DNA of 64,000 nt from Lentisphaerota bacterium. GTDB lineage: Bacteria > Verrucomicrobiota > Lentisphaeria > Victivallales > Victivallaceae. The stretch lies in assembly GCA_015061745.1 (NCBI GenBank), contig SUWB01000003.1, positions 62,001-126,000 of the forward strand. Direction: 5' to 3'. The notes below the pieces were generated by a model. It saw only the letters and a program-made list of their open reading frames with translations. It searched no databases and had not been told where the DNA came from. Positions 7,118 to 33,040 of this stretch are shown piece by piece (within the stretch, counting starts at the first letter, position 1; every line of letters starts with the position of its first letter). A program made the translations under genes and the position numbers.

Positions 7118-8158
7118 ATGAAAACCAAAGGCAAAAATTTTACACTGATCGAACTGCTGGTAAGCAAAACTTGTCAAATATGTATTAATGTTTTGCGAAA
7201 ATTTGCCTCTTGTCTTAATATTTGTCATTGCAATTCTGCCAAATGCGGGATTGTCGATTTTGCAAATGCAAAAACGGCAATCCACCAAAAGTTTTTGGCA
7301 AGGATGGATGGGGCCCGGGGAAGGAAGGGAGAACCTTTTTTCAAAAAGGGTTCCCTTCCTTCCCCGGCTCCTTTCACCTTGATAGAACTTCTTGTTGTTA
7401 TTGCCATTATCGCAATTCTGGCAGCAATGCTTCTGCCCGCTTTGCAGCAGGCACGAAACCGGGCAAAAGCAACGACCTGTCTCAACAATTTGACCTCTAT
7501 CGGCAAAGCAGTTGCTTTTTATGCTGATGATAATCTGGGCTTTGCCCCTCCTTATCACAACGGCAACAGCAACTCCCTCCTTTTCGGCGGCTACGGCCAG
7601 CGTAATGACTCCTGGCGGGGACTTCTTGCTCCCCATCTCGGCATCCACGAAAAAGCGGTCATCGGCGGCTGGGAACTGGACACAAAAACCAACGTTCTCT
7701 ACACAAGTTCCCTTGCCTGTCCTGCCACCGACGGCAGAGCCCGCATAGACTTTTTGCGTAAAACCTCTCCCACGGCCCACACCGAATACGGTTACGGTGT
7801 AGCCCACTATGCTGACGGTCCTCCGGGAGGTACTGTCCGTCTGCCTTTCAAGATCGCGGCCATTGTCAAACCTTCAAGAAGTGCCCACTTTATGGACGGT
7901 GCCAACTATGAAGTCCATTACGCCAGCGGCAGATATCCCTATGCCGCCCACGGTTCCGCAGCTCCTTTTACCGGGAAAAGCCTCTGGATTCCCAGTAACG
8001 GTGTCTGCAATGTCCTCTTTATGGACGGTCACGTTGAAGGCATTATCGCTACCCGTATTCCCATTCAGAACTACCACAATTTTGTATCGGAATATACAAC
8101 TTTCTGGCACGCCGTCAAAAGATCTAAAAACGGTTTGAAAGTCGATGACAGCTGGTGA
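7118..8158 (+). CDS. Prepilin-like (type II secretion/pseudopilin-type) protein with duplicated N-terminal signature
   Basis: 346 residues. The start follows GAAAGGAG. The prepilin methylation signature occurs twice in frame: FTLIELLV at 7139-7162 (residue 8 onward), then again at 7373 as [20 protein letters not shown]. The 210 bases between them encode about 70 low-complexity residues and contain two strong hairpins. The second copy continues into the membrane helix and the normal body of the family, with a late NVLFMDGH motif near residue 300, so it is the functional-looking one. These proteins are abundant in Lentisphaerota and Planctomycetota; their role is unproven. The downstream ATG or an internal start could bypass the first copy, so the true N-terminus is uncertain. 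Confidence 0.85.
7248..7283. repeat. Inverted repeat inside the prepilin-like gene
   Basis: The outer arms GGATTGTCG and CGGCAATCC pair with one wobble. The inner arms TTTTGCA and TGCAAAA are a perfect palindrome around AA. It lies in the 210-base segment that separates the two copies of the prepilin signature. Confidence 0.8.
7315..7367. repeat. Palindromic element ending just before the second FTLIELL
   Basis: A perfect 15-bp outer stem pairs CCGGGGAAGGAAGGG (7315-7329) with CCCTTCCTTCCCCGG (7353-7367). It is continued by an inner stem around ACCTTTTTTCAAAAAGGG. It ends 5 bases before the TTC codon of the second FTLIELL. Its core resembles the intergenic element at 13047-13132. Confidence 0.9.
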
Positions 8159-26988: not shown

Positions 26989-27798
26989 ATGTCAATTCCA
27001 GCTAAAAAGATGTCAAAAATTATCAAACAGCCTGAACAGTTCGCTCCCGTCCCCAGTCCCGGAGCTGAAATATTCCTCTGCGGCCGGGGCGAAGTGGCAT
27101 TTGCCTGGAACTTTATCCGGAAAGATCCATTCTGGTTTCTTTACTGCAATTCCGGTCCGGGGGCTGTTCTGACCTTTGAGGATCAGGAGATCCGCCCCGG
27201 CAGGAAAGAGATTATCCTCATTCCCCCCGGCACTCCTTTTCAAAGCCGCTGCGAAGCTCCTTTTGAACATCTTTACATCCACTTTCAAACAGGACTCCCC
27301 TATTCCCGGGTCAAACCGGGGGTAATGGTCTTTGAACCTGAACTTTGCGGAATTCTGGAAGATCTTTTTTCGACAGACAAACTTTCCCCCGCAGCGGTCT
27401 ATGCCCTTGTCTATTCCGCTCTGGCAGCGATCCCGGAGGAGCGTTTCACTCCGGAAGACACTCCTCCTGATGACCGTTTGCAGACCGCTTTGAGAATGCT
27501 CAATCAAAAGATGCCCAACGACAGGATATGCCGTTCCATCGGTATGTCGGGAAGCAATTTCCAAAAGTTTTTCAAACAGAAAACCGGCGTTTCCCCCCAT
27601 CAGTACGCTCTGAAGATGCGGCTCGAAAAGGCCTGTCTGCTCCTGAGTTCCGGAGCGGACGACATCAGCTCCATTGCCGCCGAGTGCGGATTTTCCGACC
27701 GCTACGCCTTTTCCAAAGCCTTTGCCAGATACATCGGGCTGCCGCCGGCACGCTACCGTCAGGCAGCACACGGAACAAAGGAACACAGGGAAAATTGA
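26989..27798 (+). CDS. AraC-family transcriptional regulator with cupin sensor domain
   Basis: 269 residues from the ATG at 26989 (AAGGA 8 bases upstream); an upstream in-frame start would cover the promoter. The N-terminal 100 residues form a cupin-like fold (IRPGRKEIILIPPGTPFQ). The C-terminal 95 residues carry two helix-turn-helix motifs: ICRSIGMSGSNFQKFFKQKT and ISSIAAECGFSDRYAFSKAF, followed by the family ending PARYRQ. It is a one-component sugar or metabolite sensor by family. It faces the M24-amidohydrolase operon and probably controls it. Confidence 0.9.
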   Translation: MSIPAKKMSKIIKQPEQFAPVPSPGAEIFLCGRGEVAFAWNFIRKDPFWFLYCNSGPGAVLTFEDQEIRPGRKEIILIPPGTPFQSRCEAPFEHLYIHFQTGLPYSRVKPGVMVFEPELCGILEDLFSTDKLSPAAVYALVYSALAAIPEERFTPEDTPPDDRLQTALRMLNQKMPNDRICRSIGMSGSNFQKFFKQKTGVSPHQYALKMRLEKACLLLSSGADDISSIAAECGFSDRYAFSKAFARYIGLPPARYRQAAHGTKEHREN

Positions 27799-27871
27799 TT
27801 TTGAAAGGCTCCCCCCTTTTTTCGTCAGGAGTTCCGAAAAGCAATTCTTGACTCTTTTTTTTATAAGTGAC

Positions 27872-27901
27872 TTGACAAATCAAAATGGCGGTGTATATTA
27901 T
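27872..27901 (+). promoter_or_regulatory. Consensus sigma-70 promoter of rex
   Basis: A perfect TTGACA (27872-27877) and TATTAT (27896-27901) are 18 bases apart; TATATT two bases earlier would give 16. No palindromic Rex site (TTGTxA...TxACAA) was recognised over it. Confidence 0.75.
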
Positions 27902-27954
27902 ATGGATAAAAAAAGATCTATTGCAATAAACTATTTTTTTACACGGGGTCAAAA

Positions 27955-28614
27955 TTGAGTCGGAGCAAGATACCTAATTCGCCTTCCATCAGGCGGATGC
28001 CCAGCTATCTGCATAAACTTATGCTTATGCACCAGAATGGGGAAAAACACGCCTCCACCACCCGTTTGGCCGAATATATCAATCTCGATACCATCATTGT
28101 CCGCAAGGATTTTGAACTGACAGGCATTTCCGGACAGCCCGGTGTGGGCTATAAAACCGATGAACTTATTGAGGGGATCCGCCGTTATCTCAACTGGGAT
28201 CGTACCTGCCGTGCCTGTCTGGTGGGAGCCGGGTCTCTCGGCAGTGCCCTGATCGGCCACGAGGAGTTCGCAGAATACGGTTTGGAAATTTCTTCTGTTT
28301 TTGATTCCAATCCCGACCGTGTGGACTCCATTATCCACGGACACAAGATCATTGATGTACGCAAGATGAGCGAAACGCTCAAAGATAATCCGCCTGATCT
28401 GGGGATCATCTGCGTTCCTTCAAACTGTGCCCAGATGGTGACTGATGAACTTATCAGCTGCGGCGTCAAAGCATTCTGGAACTTTGCAAATGTCTGTTTG
28501 CGGGTTCCCAATGACGTGATCGTCCAGCGTGAAGTGATTGCCGGGGGCTTTGCGATGCTGTCAGTCAAGATGGCAAAACGCAGCTCCAGGCAGGAAGGTT
28601 TTATTGAGGAGTGA
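27955..28614 (+). CDS. rex: Redox-sensing transcriptional repressor Rex
   Basis: 219 residues. The start is TTG at 27955, preceded by GGGG. The first internal ATG would cut the conserved SIRRMPSYLHKL that begins the winged-helix domain in Rex proteins. The wing and recognition region follow (DTIIVRKDFELTGISG, then GVGYKTDEL). The NAD(H)-binding Rossmann domain begins at CLVGAGSLGSALI and includes FDSNPDRV. Rex releases DNA when NADH/NAD+ rises, which derepresses fermentative genes. It sits directly upstream of the hydrogenase genes in the same direction, a natural regulatory target. Confidence 0.92.
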   Translation: MSRSKIPNSPSIRRMPSYLHKLMLMHQNGEKHASTTRLAEYINLDTIIVRKDFELTGISGQPGVGYKTDELIEGIRRYLNWDRTCRACLVGAGSLGSALIGHEEFAEYGLEISSVFDSNPDRVDSIIHGHKIIDVRKMSETLKDNPPDLGIICVPSNCAQMVTDELISCGVKAFWNFANVCLRVPNDVIVQREVIAGGFAMLSVKMAKRSSRQEGFIEE

Positions 28615-28838
28615 CCTTTAATACAATAAACACTTCTCCGGCACAGGCGGGAGTTTGAAAAAACTCCGTCCAATGTGTCAGAAAAAATTAAACAGGTTGT
28701 TTTTTCCGCAGGGTCAGCAGAGAAAAAAATTCTCTGAAACACTGCGGTTCGGGAAGGAGCCTTGAGCCAGTCGGTCCAACTCCTTGTAATGCCGCCCCTT
28801 ACGGGCGGGTAGTCCTATAAATAAGAAGGTTAGAAAAA
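28615..28838 (+). promoter_or_regulatory. Structured leader of the hydrogenase operon
   Basis: The 224 bases between rex and hydC hold a row of stems: GGCACA/TGTGTC with inner GGAGTTT/AAACTCC (28640-28679); CCGCAG/CTGCGG (28706-28747) enclosing CAGAGAA/TTCTCTG; AAGGAG/CTCCTT (28754-28785); and CCGCCC/GGGCGG (28792-28808). A possible promoter TTGAGC-17-TGTAAT lies at 28762-28790. No known riboswitch or small RNA was recognised. The first hairpin may end rex transcription. Confidence 0.5.
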
Positions 28839-29354
28839 ATGTGTTGCAACAAATTGTCGGAGGGAGCAGCTGCCAAATTCGCAGAACTCGATGCTTTCAT
28901 CGACGGTCTGGGAATTGACCGCAACGATGAACGCCGCCGCGGACGGCTGATCCAGGTTTTGCACCGCGCCCAGGATATCTTCGGATATCTGCCCCGGGAA
29001 GTCCAGATCCACGTCGCCCAGAAACTTTATCTCTCTGAAGCTCAGGTTTCCGGCGTGGTCAGCTTCTACAACTATTTCACTACTGAACCCAAAGGTAAGT
29101 ACAACATCGATATCTGTATGGGTACTGCCTGCTATGTGAAGGGTGCTGAAACTGTCCTGCGTGAACTCGAACGCGTGCTCGGCGTCAAAGCTGACACCAA
29201 CCCCACCCCCGATGGTCTGTTTTCCATTAACGCTCTCCGCTGCGTCGGTGCCTGCGGTCTTGCCCCCGTTATGATGGTCAACGGCAAAGTTTACGGTAAA
29301 GTCACCCCTGCCAAGGCAGTGGAAATTATCAACGAATACAAGAAGCAGGGATAA
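28839..29354 (+). CDS. hydC: Hydrogenase NuoE-like subunit, thioredoxin-like [2Fe-2S]
   Basis: 171 residues, cytoplasmic. It matches the NuoE/HndA 24-kDa subunit. An N-terminal helical bundle (GRLIQVLHRAQDIFGYLP) is followed by a thioredoxin-like domain with the ligands CMGTAC and CVGACG for one [2Fe-2S] cluster. In trimeric NAD(P)-linked [FeFe] hydrogenases this subunit relays electrons next to the flavin subunit. It starts the three-gene operon hydCBA, followed after 3 bases by hydB. Codon use in all three is strongly biased to C-ending codons and CGT, suggesting high expression. Confidence 0.93.
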   Translation: MCCNKLSEGAAAKFAELDAFIDGLGIDRNDERRRGRLIQVLHRAQDIFGYLPREVQIHVAQKLYLSEAQVSGVVSFYNYFTTEPKGKYNIDICMGTACYVKGAETVLRELERVLGVKADTNPTPDGLFSINALRCVGACGLAPVMMVNGKVYGKVTPAKAVEIINEYKKQG

Positions 29355-29357
29355 GCT

Positions 29358-31289
29358 ATGAACAAGATCACCTCTCAGGAAGCTCTGAACAGTGCTTTCA
29401 ATGCCGCCAAGGGCCAGCTGGCTCTGCGTTGCACCGCTGCTCACGACATCAACTCTGTTAAAAAAGATATCCTCTGCTGCGGCGGTACCGGATGCCACGC
29501 CTCCAACGCCAAAGAGCTGATGGCCAATCTTAACAAGTACATCAAAGAAAACGGTCTTGAAAATGACGTCCGCGTCGTCCAGACCGGCTGCTTCGGTTTC
29601 TGTGCCCAGGGTCCTATCGTCAAGATTATGCCTGACAACGTTTTCTACGTTCAGGTCACCCCCGAAGATGCCAAAGAAATCGTCGAAAGCCACATCGTCG
29701 GCAAAAAACTTGTCGAACGTCTGCTCTTTATGGAACCCCTTTTGAAGCAGCGTGTTCAGGACTACGCCAAGATGTCCTTCTACGCCAAGCAGGAACGTAT
29801 CTCTCTGCGTAACTGCGGTCTTCTCAACCCCGAATGCATCGAAGAATATATCGCCAACGAAGGTTATCAGGCTCTTGCCAAATGTCTTTTCAAGATGAAA
29901 ACCGACGAAGTGGTGCAGGAAGTTCTGAACTCCGGTCTCTGCGGCCGCGGCGGTGCCGGATTCCCCACCGGTATGAAATGGAAAATCGCTGCCGGCGTCA
30001 AGGCTGACGAAAAATATATCGTCTGTAACGCTGACGAAGGTGACCCCGGTGCCTTTATGGACCGTTCCATTATGGAAGGCGACCCCCACTCCGTGATCGA
30101 AGCTATGGCCATCGGTGCCTACGCCATCGGTGCTCAGAAGGGTCTCGTTTACATCCGTGCCGAATATCCCCTGGCTGTCAGCCGTCTGCGCGGTGCCATC
30201 GAACAGGCCCGTGAATGCGGACTCCTGGGCGACAACATTATGGGAACCAACTTCAGCTTTGATATCGAAATCAAGCTGGGTGCCGGTGCTTTCGTCTGCG
30301 GTGAGGAAACTGCTCTGATCCACTCTATGGAAGGTCAGCGCGGCGAACCCACCACCAAACCTCCGTTCCCTGCCAACATCGGCGGCGGCTACTGGGGCTG
30401 CTCCACCAACGTGAACAACGTTGAAACCTATGCCACTGTGCCTATGATCATCCTCAAGGGTGCCACCTGGTACAGCAAGATCGGTAACTGGCAGGCTGAG
30501 TGGGACGAAAACGGCAACTGGAAACGCACTATCAGCGGCAACAGCGGTACCAAAGTGTTCGCTCTGGCCGGTCAGATCAACAACGTGGGTCTGGTGGAAG
30601 TTCCTATGGGTACCACCCTGCGTGAGATCATCTACGAAATCGGCGGCGGAATTTCCGGCGGCCGTGAATTCAAAGCTGTGCAGACCGGCGGTCCTTCCGG
30701 CGGCTGTATCACCAAGGAAAACCTGGACACCCCCATCGACTACGGCAATCTGTCCAAGATCGGTTCTATGATGGGTTCCGGCGGTATGATCGTGCTGTCT
30801 GACAAAGACTGTATGCCCGCTATGGCCAAGTTCTATCTGGACTTCACCAAAGATGAATCCTGCGGTAAGTGCACCCCCTGCCGTATCGGTACCCGCCGTA
30901 TGCTGGAAATGCTGGAAAAGATCTGCGACGGCAACGGTACTCTTGAGATGCTCGATGAACTCGAATCTCTCGCCAAAACCATCTGCGACACCGCTCTCTG
31001 CGGTCTGGGCCAGACTGCTCCCAACCCCATCCTGAGCACCCTGCGTTACTTCCGTGACGAATATGTGGCTCACGTGGTTGATAAGAAATGCCCCGCCGGC
31101 ACCTGTCCCAAACTTTACACCCTTACCATTACTGAAGATTGTATCGGCTGTACCAAGTGCAAACGCAACTGTCCTGTTGACGCCATCAAAGGCGAAATCA
31201 AGCAACTGCACGTCATTGACACTGCCAAGTGTATCAAGTGCGGTGCCTGTATCGGCGGTTGTCCCAAGAAAGCTATTGTCAAAAAGTGA
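29358..31289 (+). CDS. hydB: NADH-binding flavoprotein subunit of the [FeFe] hydrogenase (NuoF-like)
   Basis: 643 residues, cytoplasmic. The N-terminal thioredoxin-like [2Fe-2S] domain has CCGGTGCH and CFGFC. The FMN/NADH domain follows, with GRGGAGFPTGMKW, NADEGDPGAFMDRS and GAGAFVCGEETAL. SCGKCTPCRIGTRR is the NuoF-type [4Fe-4S] site. Two C-terminal ferredoxin clusters follow: CIGCTKCKRNCP and CIKCGACIGGCP. This is the architecture of HydB of electron-bifurcating hydrogenases, which couple NADH and reduced ferredoxin. Bifurcation here is an inference from architecture; some relatives simply use NAD(P)H. Confidence 0.94.
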   Translation: MNKITSQEALNSAFNAAKGQLALRCTAAHDINSVKKDILCCGGTGCHASNAKELMANLNKYIKENGLENDVRVVQTGCFGFCAQGPIVKIMPDNVFYVQVTPEDAKEIVESHIVGKKLVERLLFMEPLLKQRVQDYAKMSFYAKQERISLRNCGLLNPECIEEYIANEGYQALAKCLFKMKTDEVVQEVLNSGLCGRGGAGFPTGMKWKIAAGVKADEKYIVCNADEGDPGAFMDRSIMEGDPHSVIEAMAIGAYAIGAQKGLVYIRAEYPLAVSRLRGAIEQARECGLLGDNIMGTNFSFDIEIKLGAGAFVCGEETALIHSMEGQRGEPTTKPPFPANIGGGYWGCSTNVNNVETYATVPMIILKGATWYSKIGNWQAEWDENGNWKRTISGNSGTKVFALAGQINNVGLVEVPMGTTLREIIYEIGGGISGGREFKAVQTGGPSGGCITKENLDTPIDYGNLSKIGSMMGSGGMIVLSDKDCMPAMAKFYLDFTKDESCGKCTPCRIGTRRMLEMLEKICDGNGTLEMLDELESLAKTICDTALCGLGQTAPNPILSTLRYFRDEYVAHVVDKKCPAGTCPKLYTLTITEDCIGCTKCKRNCPVDAIKGEIKQLHVIDTAKCIKCGACIGGCPKKAIVKK

Positions 31290-31297
31290 GTGCAACA

Positions 31298-33040
31298 ATG
31301 AATACTGTCAATCTTACCATCAATGGGAAGCAGGTCACTGTTCCTGCCGGTTCCACTATTCTGGAAGCCGCCCGTCAGCTCAATATCAAGATCCCGACCC
31401 TCTGCTATTGGGACAAACTCGGCTGCGGCATTTCCAACCAGCCCGCCAGCTGCCGTATCTGCGTGGTCGAAGTTGAACGCCGCCGCAACCTGGCTCCCGC
31501 CTGTGCCACTCCTGTTATGGAAGGTATGGTGGTGCATACCAACAGCCAGCGTGCTCTCAACGCCCGCCGGACCGTTCTTGAGCTTATGCTCAGCGACCAC
31601 CCCCAGAAGTGTCTGACCTGTGCCAAGAACCAGGATTGCGAACTGCGTATGCTGGCTGCTGAATTCGGCATTCAGGAAGTCGCTTTCTCCGGTGCAAAGA
31701 ACCGTTTTGAAGTGGATGACTCCAGCGAAGCCATTATGCGCGACCTTTCCAAGTGCGTTATGTGCCGCCGCTGCGAAACCGTCTGTAACAAAGTTCAGAC
31801 TGTCAGTGCTCTGACCGGTAACGGCCGCGGATTTTCCGCCAAGGTCGGCACCGCCAGTATGATTCCTCTGGCCGATACCAACTGTACCTTCTGCGGACAG
31901 TGCGTCAACGTCTGCCCCGTGGGTGCTATCACCGGTATCAGCTATGTGAAAAAAGTCTGGGCCGCTATCAACGATCCCACCAAGACTGTCATCGTCCAGA
32001 CCGCTCCCGCCGTCCGCGTGGCTGTGGGCCAGGAATTCGGATTTGAACCCGGTACTCCTGTCACCGGCAAGATGGTTGCCGGTCTCCGTGCTCTGGGTTT
32101 TGACAAAGTTTTCGACACCAACTTCTCCGCTGACCTTACCATTATGGAAGAAGGTACCGAGATCGTCGAACGCGTCAAGAGCGGCAAAGACCTGCCCATT
32201 CTGACCAGCTGCTGCCCCGGCTGGATCAACTTCATCGAACACAACTATCCTGATTTGCTGCACATTCCTTCCAGCTGCAAATCTCCTCAGCAGATGTTCG
32301 GTGCCATCGCCAAGAGCTACTATGCCGAAAAGATCGGCGTGAAGCCCTCTGATCTGGTGGTTGTTTCCATTATGCCCTGCCAGGCCAAGAAATACGAAGC
32401 TGCCCGTCCCGAATTCAGCAAAGACGGTGTCCGCGACGTGGACTACGTTGTCACCACCCGTGAACTCTGCAAGATGTTCCGTGAAGCCGGTGTCAACCTG
32501 GCCAATATGGATGACGATCAGTTCGACAGTCCTCTGGGCCAGTCCTCCGGTGCCGCCGACATCTTCGGTGTTACCGGCGGTGTGCTCGAAGCTGCCTGCC
32601 GTTCCGTCTACTATATGCTCAACGGCAAGAATCTGGAAGGCGACGCCATCAACTTCCGCGCTGTCCGCGGTCTTGACGGCATCAAAGAAGCCACTGTCCA
32701 GATCGCTCCCGGAAAGAGCATCAACGTGGCCGTCTGCTCCGGTCTGGGCAATGCCCGCAAAGTCCTTGATATGGTCCGTCAGGATCCCAACCGTTTCCAG
32801 GCTATTGAAATTATGGCCTGCCCCGGCGGTTGTATCAACGGCGGCGGTCAGCCCTTCCTCCACGGTGATACCGCTCTCCTCGAAAAGCGTATGAAAGGTA
32901 TCTACACCGAGGACGAAAAGAAGACTCTGCGTCTTTCCCACGAGAACACCGACATCAAGGCTCTCTATGCTGAGTTCCTCGGTGAACCCGGAAGCGAAAA
33001 GGCTCACGAGCTGCTTCACACCCACTATCATTCCAAGTAA
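31298..33040 (+). CDS. hydA: [FeFe] hydrogenase catalytic subunit
   Basis: 580 residues from the ATG at 31298; a longer upstream reading would overlap hydB. In order: a [2Fe-2S] domain (Cys36, 52, 55, 69), a His-ligated cluster (His101, Cys105, 108, 114), two [4Fe-4S] clusters (Cys153-163 and 196-206), and the H-cluster domain. The H-cluster motifs are TSCCPGW (Cys305 proton relay, Cys306 ligand), IMPCQAKK (Cys361) and MACPGGCINGGGQP (Cys508, Cys512). The usual first motif has Ala (PAW) where this has Gly. The enzyme forms or oxidises hydrogen. A clear terminator follows. Maturases HydE, HydF and HydG are not in the window. Confidence 0.95.
   Translation: MNTVNLTINGKQVTVPAGSTILEAARQLNIKIPTLCYWDKLGCGISNQPASCRICVVEVERRRNLAPACATPVMEGMVVHTNSQRALNARRTVLELMLSDHPQKCLTCAKNQDCELRMLAAEFGIQEVAFSGAKNRFEVDDSSEAIMRDLSKCVMCRRCETVCNKVQTVSALTGNGRGFSAKVGTASMIPLADTNCTFCGQCVNVCPVGAITGISYVKKVWAAINDPTKTVIVQTAPAVRVAVGQEFGFEPGTPVTGKMVAGLRALGFDKVFDTNFSADLTIMEEGTEIVERVKSGKDLPILTSCCPGWINFIEHNYPDLLHIPSSCKSPQQMFGAIAKSYYAEKIGVKPSDLVVVSIMPCQAKKYEAARPEFSKDGVRDVDYVVTTRELCKMFREAGVNLANMDDDQFDSPLGQSSGAADIFGVTGGVLEAACRSVYYMLNGKNLEGDAINFRAVRGLDGIKEATVQIAPGKSINVAVCSGLGNARKVLDMVRQDPNRFQAIEIMACPGGCINGGGQPFLHGDTALLEKRMKGIYTEDEKKTLRLSHENTDIKALYAEFLGEPGSEKAHELLHTHYHSK

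Follow-up and report, generated by a model that had tools for sequence, protein, structure and literature searches.

In the cggR-gapA operon of Bacillus subtilis, a cut in the message lowers its repressor part and stabilizes its enzyme part (PMC10470536), and in the cip-cel operon of Ruminiclostridium cellulolyticum intergenic stem-loops set the transcript ratios (PMC10311766). Here we analyzed the gap of 224 nucleotides (nt) between rex, encoding a redox-sensing repressor, and the [FeFe] hydrogenase genes hydC, hydB and hydA (hydCBA) in a Lentisphaeria gut bacterium (genome of 3.1 Mb, 92% complete). The gap lies between the rex stop codon (28614) and the hydC ATG (28839) of a 64,000-nt window, which is the whole stretch of DNA that was analyzed (contig SUWB01000003.1, positions 62,001 to 126,000); all features given below are on its + strand. 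The spacer is real, modestly conserved and of a recognizable kind. We give a probability of roughly one in two to the reading that it is an intercistronic processing or 5'-stabilizing element, letting the hydrogenase mRNA outlast the repressor mRNA as in cggR-gapA.

Four hairpins were found in series in the gap. The preliminary description of this locus had listed a long stem, a nested stem with an A-rich loop, a stem with AAGGAG as its 5' arm and a GC stem near the ribosome-binding region, and each of these was present. The long stem-loop SL0 (28637..28682; -21 kcal/mol, z -4.3) starts 22 nt past the rex stop codon and is followed by the nested hairpin SL1 (28706..28747; -18.5 kcal/mol, z -5.5), in which CCGCAG..CTGCGG encloses an A-rich inner loop. 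SL2 (28754..28785; -11.7 kcal/mol, z -1.2), with the 5' arm AAGGAG, is not unusual in stability when taken alone. The terminal GC hairpin SL3, CCGCCC-CTTAC-GGGCGG (28792..28808; -11.1 kcal/mol, z -3.1), ends 31 nt upstream of the hydC ATG. The minimum free energy (MFE) of the whole gap was -73.5 (z -3.6), and none of 200 shuffles folded as well. Among 143 window tiles of 224 nt (mean z -0.8), however, four (about 3%) reached z -3.7 or below, and the folding energy alone is thus moderate evidence and no proof of selection. The most extreme tiles start at 7169, 42561, 12993 and 12545 (z -7.5, -7.1, -5.0 and -4.4, respectively) and have stronger z-scores than the hydC gap. Examined as a possible repetitive extragenic palindromic (REP)-like repeat, the gap sequence had a single genomic copy.

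Downstream of SL3, the hydC start region (28809..28838), with the Shine-Dalgarno (SD) sequence AGAAGG at 28824-28829, is A-rich and mostly unpaired as judged from unpaired probability. The mean unpaired probability in the window was 0.68 over the last 20 nt of the gap, compared to 0.43 for the whole gap. On average over the species the value was 0.63 for the start region and 0.48 for the rest of the gap, and the start region was the more open part in most of them. These results suggest that the default structure leaves hydC unshut.

We collected 76 hydC loci (numbered with the prefix L) and took the rex-hydC gaps from these. In sister species, which belong to the same genus and have a more distant rex (~50% identical), the gaps are ~115-175 nt long. 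Two hairpins are typical of these gaps: one of them often contains GGAGG or AGGAGG, and the terminal one has the form GCACCG..CGGTGC. The stem of the terminal hairpin covaried across eight sister species: 93% of cells were paired and 8 cells were changed on both sides, which none of 500 shuffles equaled, and slid versions of the stem were at most 59% paired. Of 20 rex-hydC gaps from the genus, 15 had a hairpin of -7 kcal/mol or lower with its end between -37 and -25 relative to the hydC ATG, compared to 3.1 +/- 1.6 expected from shuffled gaps, and this count was reached in none of 200,000 simulated sets; the boundary rule leaves out L002 for a technical reason. When the rule was applied to 18 other genes of the window, with rough gene calls, only one start satisfied it. 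The positional enrichment of the terminal hairpin is to be read as strong, though not as exact. A global consensus of 13 sister species (MAFFT/RNAalifold) contained the terminal hairpin only, because the sequences of the other stems drift; an alignment of four sequences was set aside, since the window was displaced in it relative to the other three. Where Lentisphaeria hydC genes lie elsewhere than behind rex, about half likewise carry a hairpin, whose end falls roughly 21-40 nt upstream of hydC. Examples are L022, L024, L030, L039 and L051-L054, some of which follow a promoter of their own; L023, L028, L047, L048 and L057 are among those that have none. The hairpin is thus a feature of hydC rather than of the 3' end of rex.

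The window's own clade comprises L002, L075, L004, L005 and L010, with rex 87-93% identical. The L002 gap is 226 nt long, and its folding z-score and AGGAGG count cover a shorter, 177-nt version. Equivalents of SL1, SL2 and SL3 occur in the same order throughout the clade, with stem sequences largely swapped out, and those of SL2 and SL3 end ~55 and ~30 nt before the hydC ATG. For SL2, the 3' ends fall at -52 to -58 in all six clade species and the sequence is unconserved. A terminal hairpin of the SL3 type stands near -30 in 6/6 species; SL3 hardly varies and shows a single double change. At the place of SL1 a hairpin was found in all five relatives, with two double changes in the stem; near that of SL0, one was found in L002, L075, L004 and L005 and none was seen in L010. 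Conserved position, together with covariation in the sister species, supports the earlier proposal of a selected RNA structure before the hydrogenase genes. The comparison of related gaps proposed with it gave a positive result for the terminal stem of the sister species and a weak one within the clade.

The genes flanking the gap had been identified correctly, as NCBIfam and Pfam matches indicated. The rex gene (27955..28614; NF003994, 228 bits, cut-off 130) begins with TTG in the window and with ATG in L005 and L010. It is followed by hydC, encoding a NuoE-like subunit (28839..29354; PF01257, 160 bits), hydB, encoding a NuoF-like subunit (29358..31289; PF01512, 157 bits, with TIGR01959 under its cut-off), and hydA, encoding the catalytic subunit of the [FeFe] hydrogenase (31289..33040; NF040763, 879 bits, cut-off 765). 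Among named records, the nearest are metagenome assemblies of Lentisphaeria from the gut of yak, sheep and roe deer. Upstream of rex lies a promoter-like site, TTGACA-16-TATATT (27872..27899), which matches the consensus at 11 of 12 positions, presumably serves the whole rex-hydCBA operon and is kept with the block GGTGTATATTAT in L002, L004, L005, L010 and L075 when 1-2 base deviations are allowed. In the rex-hydC gaps of the six clade species, the best promoter matches reached 6-8/12 and none was conserved. Since the only good promoter-like site precedes rex, and the gap holds neither such a site nor a terminator, one rex-hydCBA message is the simplest reading, and rex-hydCBA is probably transcribed as a single message from upstream of rex.

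An A/T-rich site, AA(A/T)AGATATTTTTT, stands near or upstream of the promoter of rex, sometimes twice, in many members of the genus (for example L006, L008, L012, L027, L035, L045 and L058). This 14-mer is rare, with 0-5 copies per genome; of 34 genomes, about a dozen have a copy at the rex-hydC locus. It is a candidate operator and is absent from the window's own rex locus.

Hairpins that keep their place and not their sequence, an open ribosome site and an operon of repressor and enzymes together fit a processing or 5'-protection role. Transcription would begin upstream of rex and give a single rex-hydC-hydB-hydA message, which would be cut in or near the gap, or decay from the rex side. The hairpins, above all the terminal one ~30 nt before hydC, would then shield the new 5' end and leave the ribosome site of hydC open, and the hydrogenase part of the message would outlive the repressor part. 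Co-transcription, cleavage and a differential stability of rex and hydCBA RNA are thus predicted steps. Genes for RNase Y (680 bits) and RNase E/G (462 bits) were found in the genome, both over the cut-off. If the proposed role is correct, it would explain how a repressor and the hydrogenase that it presumably controls can share one promoter yet differ greatly in amount. Among the literature found, there was no such study in uncultured gut bacteria.

Several points weigh against a processing or stabilizing role. RNase J was not found in the genome, a point against one form of 5' protection. Covariation within the window's own clade is weak: pair-by-pair comparison of SL1 and SL3 in five sequences gave 90% paired cells and three double changes, a count that 20 of 500 shuffles also reached. 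The position range of -37 to -25 was set after the folds were seen, and the 20 species counted are related and not fully independent. Moreover, the close relatives L029, L044, L045 and L058 have gaps of 35-52 nt without stems, suggesting that the hairpins are useful and not essential.

The conserved place of the hairpins might also reflect an element acting on translation, in which they keep the hydC start clear as an insulator or standby site, or fold back on it conditionally, with no mRNA cleavage. We regard this as a possible explanation, though an unlikely one. It would suit the start-adjacent hairpin as the best conserved part of the gap and the open A-rich SD region. The motif AGGAGG occurs in nine of 23 rex-hydC gaps (L006, L012, L015, L016, L017, L018, L021, L037 and L056), compared to 1.5 expected, mostly ~90-110 nt upstream of the hydC start and so too distant to serve as its SD. 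In the MFE structure of the window gap, an upstream CUUCU pairs with the AGAAG of the SD; inspection of the relatives, however, gave no obvious counterpart of this pairing. A small upstream open reading frame after AGGAGG was rejected on inspection, as no conserved start or length was seen among the relatives. Regulation by CsrA, which could use GGA loops, was likewise discarded, because no csrA gene (PF02599) was found in the genome, which is 92% complete.

Partial transcription termination or attenuation in the gap, reducing read-through into the hydrogenase genes, is decidedly unlikely in the window, where none of the stems has a T run behind it and no terminator was found in 27700-29400. 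In most relatives only short T stretches follow the hairpin. Terminator-like hairpins with T tracts were nevertheless observed at the rex-hydC place of L037 (2949-2972) and L017 (2944-2959), and another in the hydC leader of L019 (2933-2946), suggesting that partial termination may play a part there.

The preliminary description had suggested that the leader senses redox state, a metal or a cofactor in addition to control by Rex. A riboswitch or protein-binding leader of this kind appears very unlikely. It would account for an RNA of several hairpins ahead of a redox operon and for the flanking motif TTCCGCA..GGTTCGG shared by the window, L002, L075 and L004, but this motif is lost in L005 and L010. 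The hairpins are serial without a junction, and their loops, linkers and flanks diverge within the genus, where no conserved unpaired aptamer core, loop or junction was seen. Stems are wholly missing in the short-gap relatives, and the gap is present in one genomic copy. As for features of an expression platform, the window gap has no terminator, its SD is mostly open and the CUUCU-SD pairing, seen in the window MFE only, gives no clear anti-SD switch. The statement that no known riboswitch class is recognized held, as no credible Rfam match was obtained at the gathering threshold or with E up to 10. The unconserved loops and flanks, the stem-free short gaps, the open SD and the lack of a terminator, promoter or Rfam match leave the sensing leader unsupported. 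Least likely is an internal promoter or a small RNA derived from the 3' untranslated region or, as had also been suggested, with its own promoter: several sister species have AT-rich stretches before the first stem, but the 6-8/12 matches in the six clade gaps are unconserved against a strong, conserved 11/12 site upstream of rex, and there is no terminator to end a small RNA.

A different RNA element was observed upstream, in the rex leader of nine sister species (L006, at 2121-2219, L007, L008, L011, L012, L014, L015, L016 and L056); it is lacking in the window. It begins with TGCGGCGT, a few bases downstream of the -10 box, includes CGTGGTCGTCGCAGCGGT as an invariant block and follows the pattern TGCGGCGT..ACCGTGGTCGTCGCAGCGGT.., then a covarying CCGG hairpin. 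GCGGCG is able to pair with CGUCGC, which lies in the loop of an ACCG..CGGT hairpin, and the element is likely an H-type pseudoknot. Covariation was seen in the flanking hairpins (8 pairs with double changes, 93% paired cells), whereas the predicted pseudoknot helix is invariant. By eye, the AG-rich segment right after TGCGGCGT may also pair with a segment rich in C and U at the start codon of rex. An exact 20-mer of the element occurs once per genome in seven genomes. A covariance model found the element at rex in nine of 78 family genomes, plus one chance-level match; a second weak match, in L127, was an ordinary terminator-like hairpin. The element was found nowhere but at rex and had no Rfam match. 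It resembles a specific regulatory RNA more closely than the hydC gap and is a compact candidate for a new structured RNA. It is doubtful that Rex is complemented by two layers of RNA control, namely the hydCBA hairpins and, in the sister clade, a new pseudoknot in the leader of rex that responds to a ligand; if true, both RNA and protein would exert redox control over the operon.

Compared with known systems, the hydC gap shares with Rfam cis-regulatory families its place before a metabolic operon, but none of these reaches the threshold and the best weak match (E 0.13) is on the other strand. The STAB-SD of Bacillus cry3A leaders has a likeness in several sister species, where (G)AAAGGAGG stands at a long distance upstream of the start. 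The window, in contrast, has only AAGGAG, and a STAB-SD acting with RNase J was rejected because no RNase J was found in the genome and AAGGAG lies in a stem arm. The cip-cel operon is similar in its intergenic hairpins of differing sequence and in the end protection proposed for the adjoining transcript. It differs in bacterium, genes and stem sequences, and processing is proven there, whereas in the present case it is predicted. The closest likeness considered under a processing or stabilizing role is to cggR-gapA, with its RNase Y/Ric-dependent processing. In the present locus the structured segment is a non-coding gap of 224 nt, and cleavage is a predicted step. As in cggR-gapA, the repressor gene comes first and the enzyme genes follow, with a structured segment between them that lies on the 5' side of the presumed stabilized enzyme mRNA; a single upstream promoter is proposed and an RNase Y gene is present. 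If the proposed role is correct, wiring of the cggR-gapA type, known from Firmicutes, would reach another phylum.
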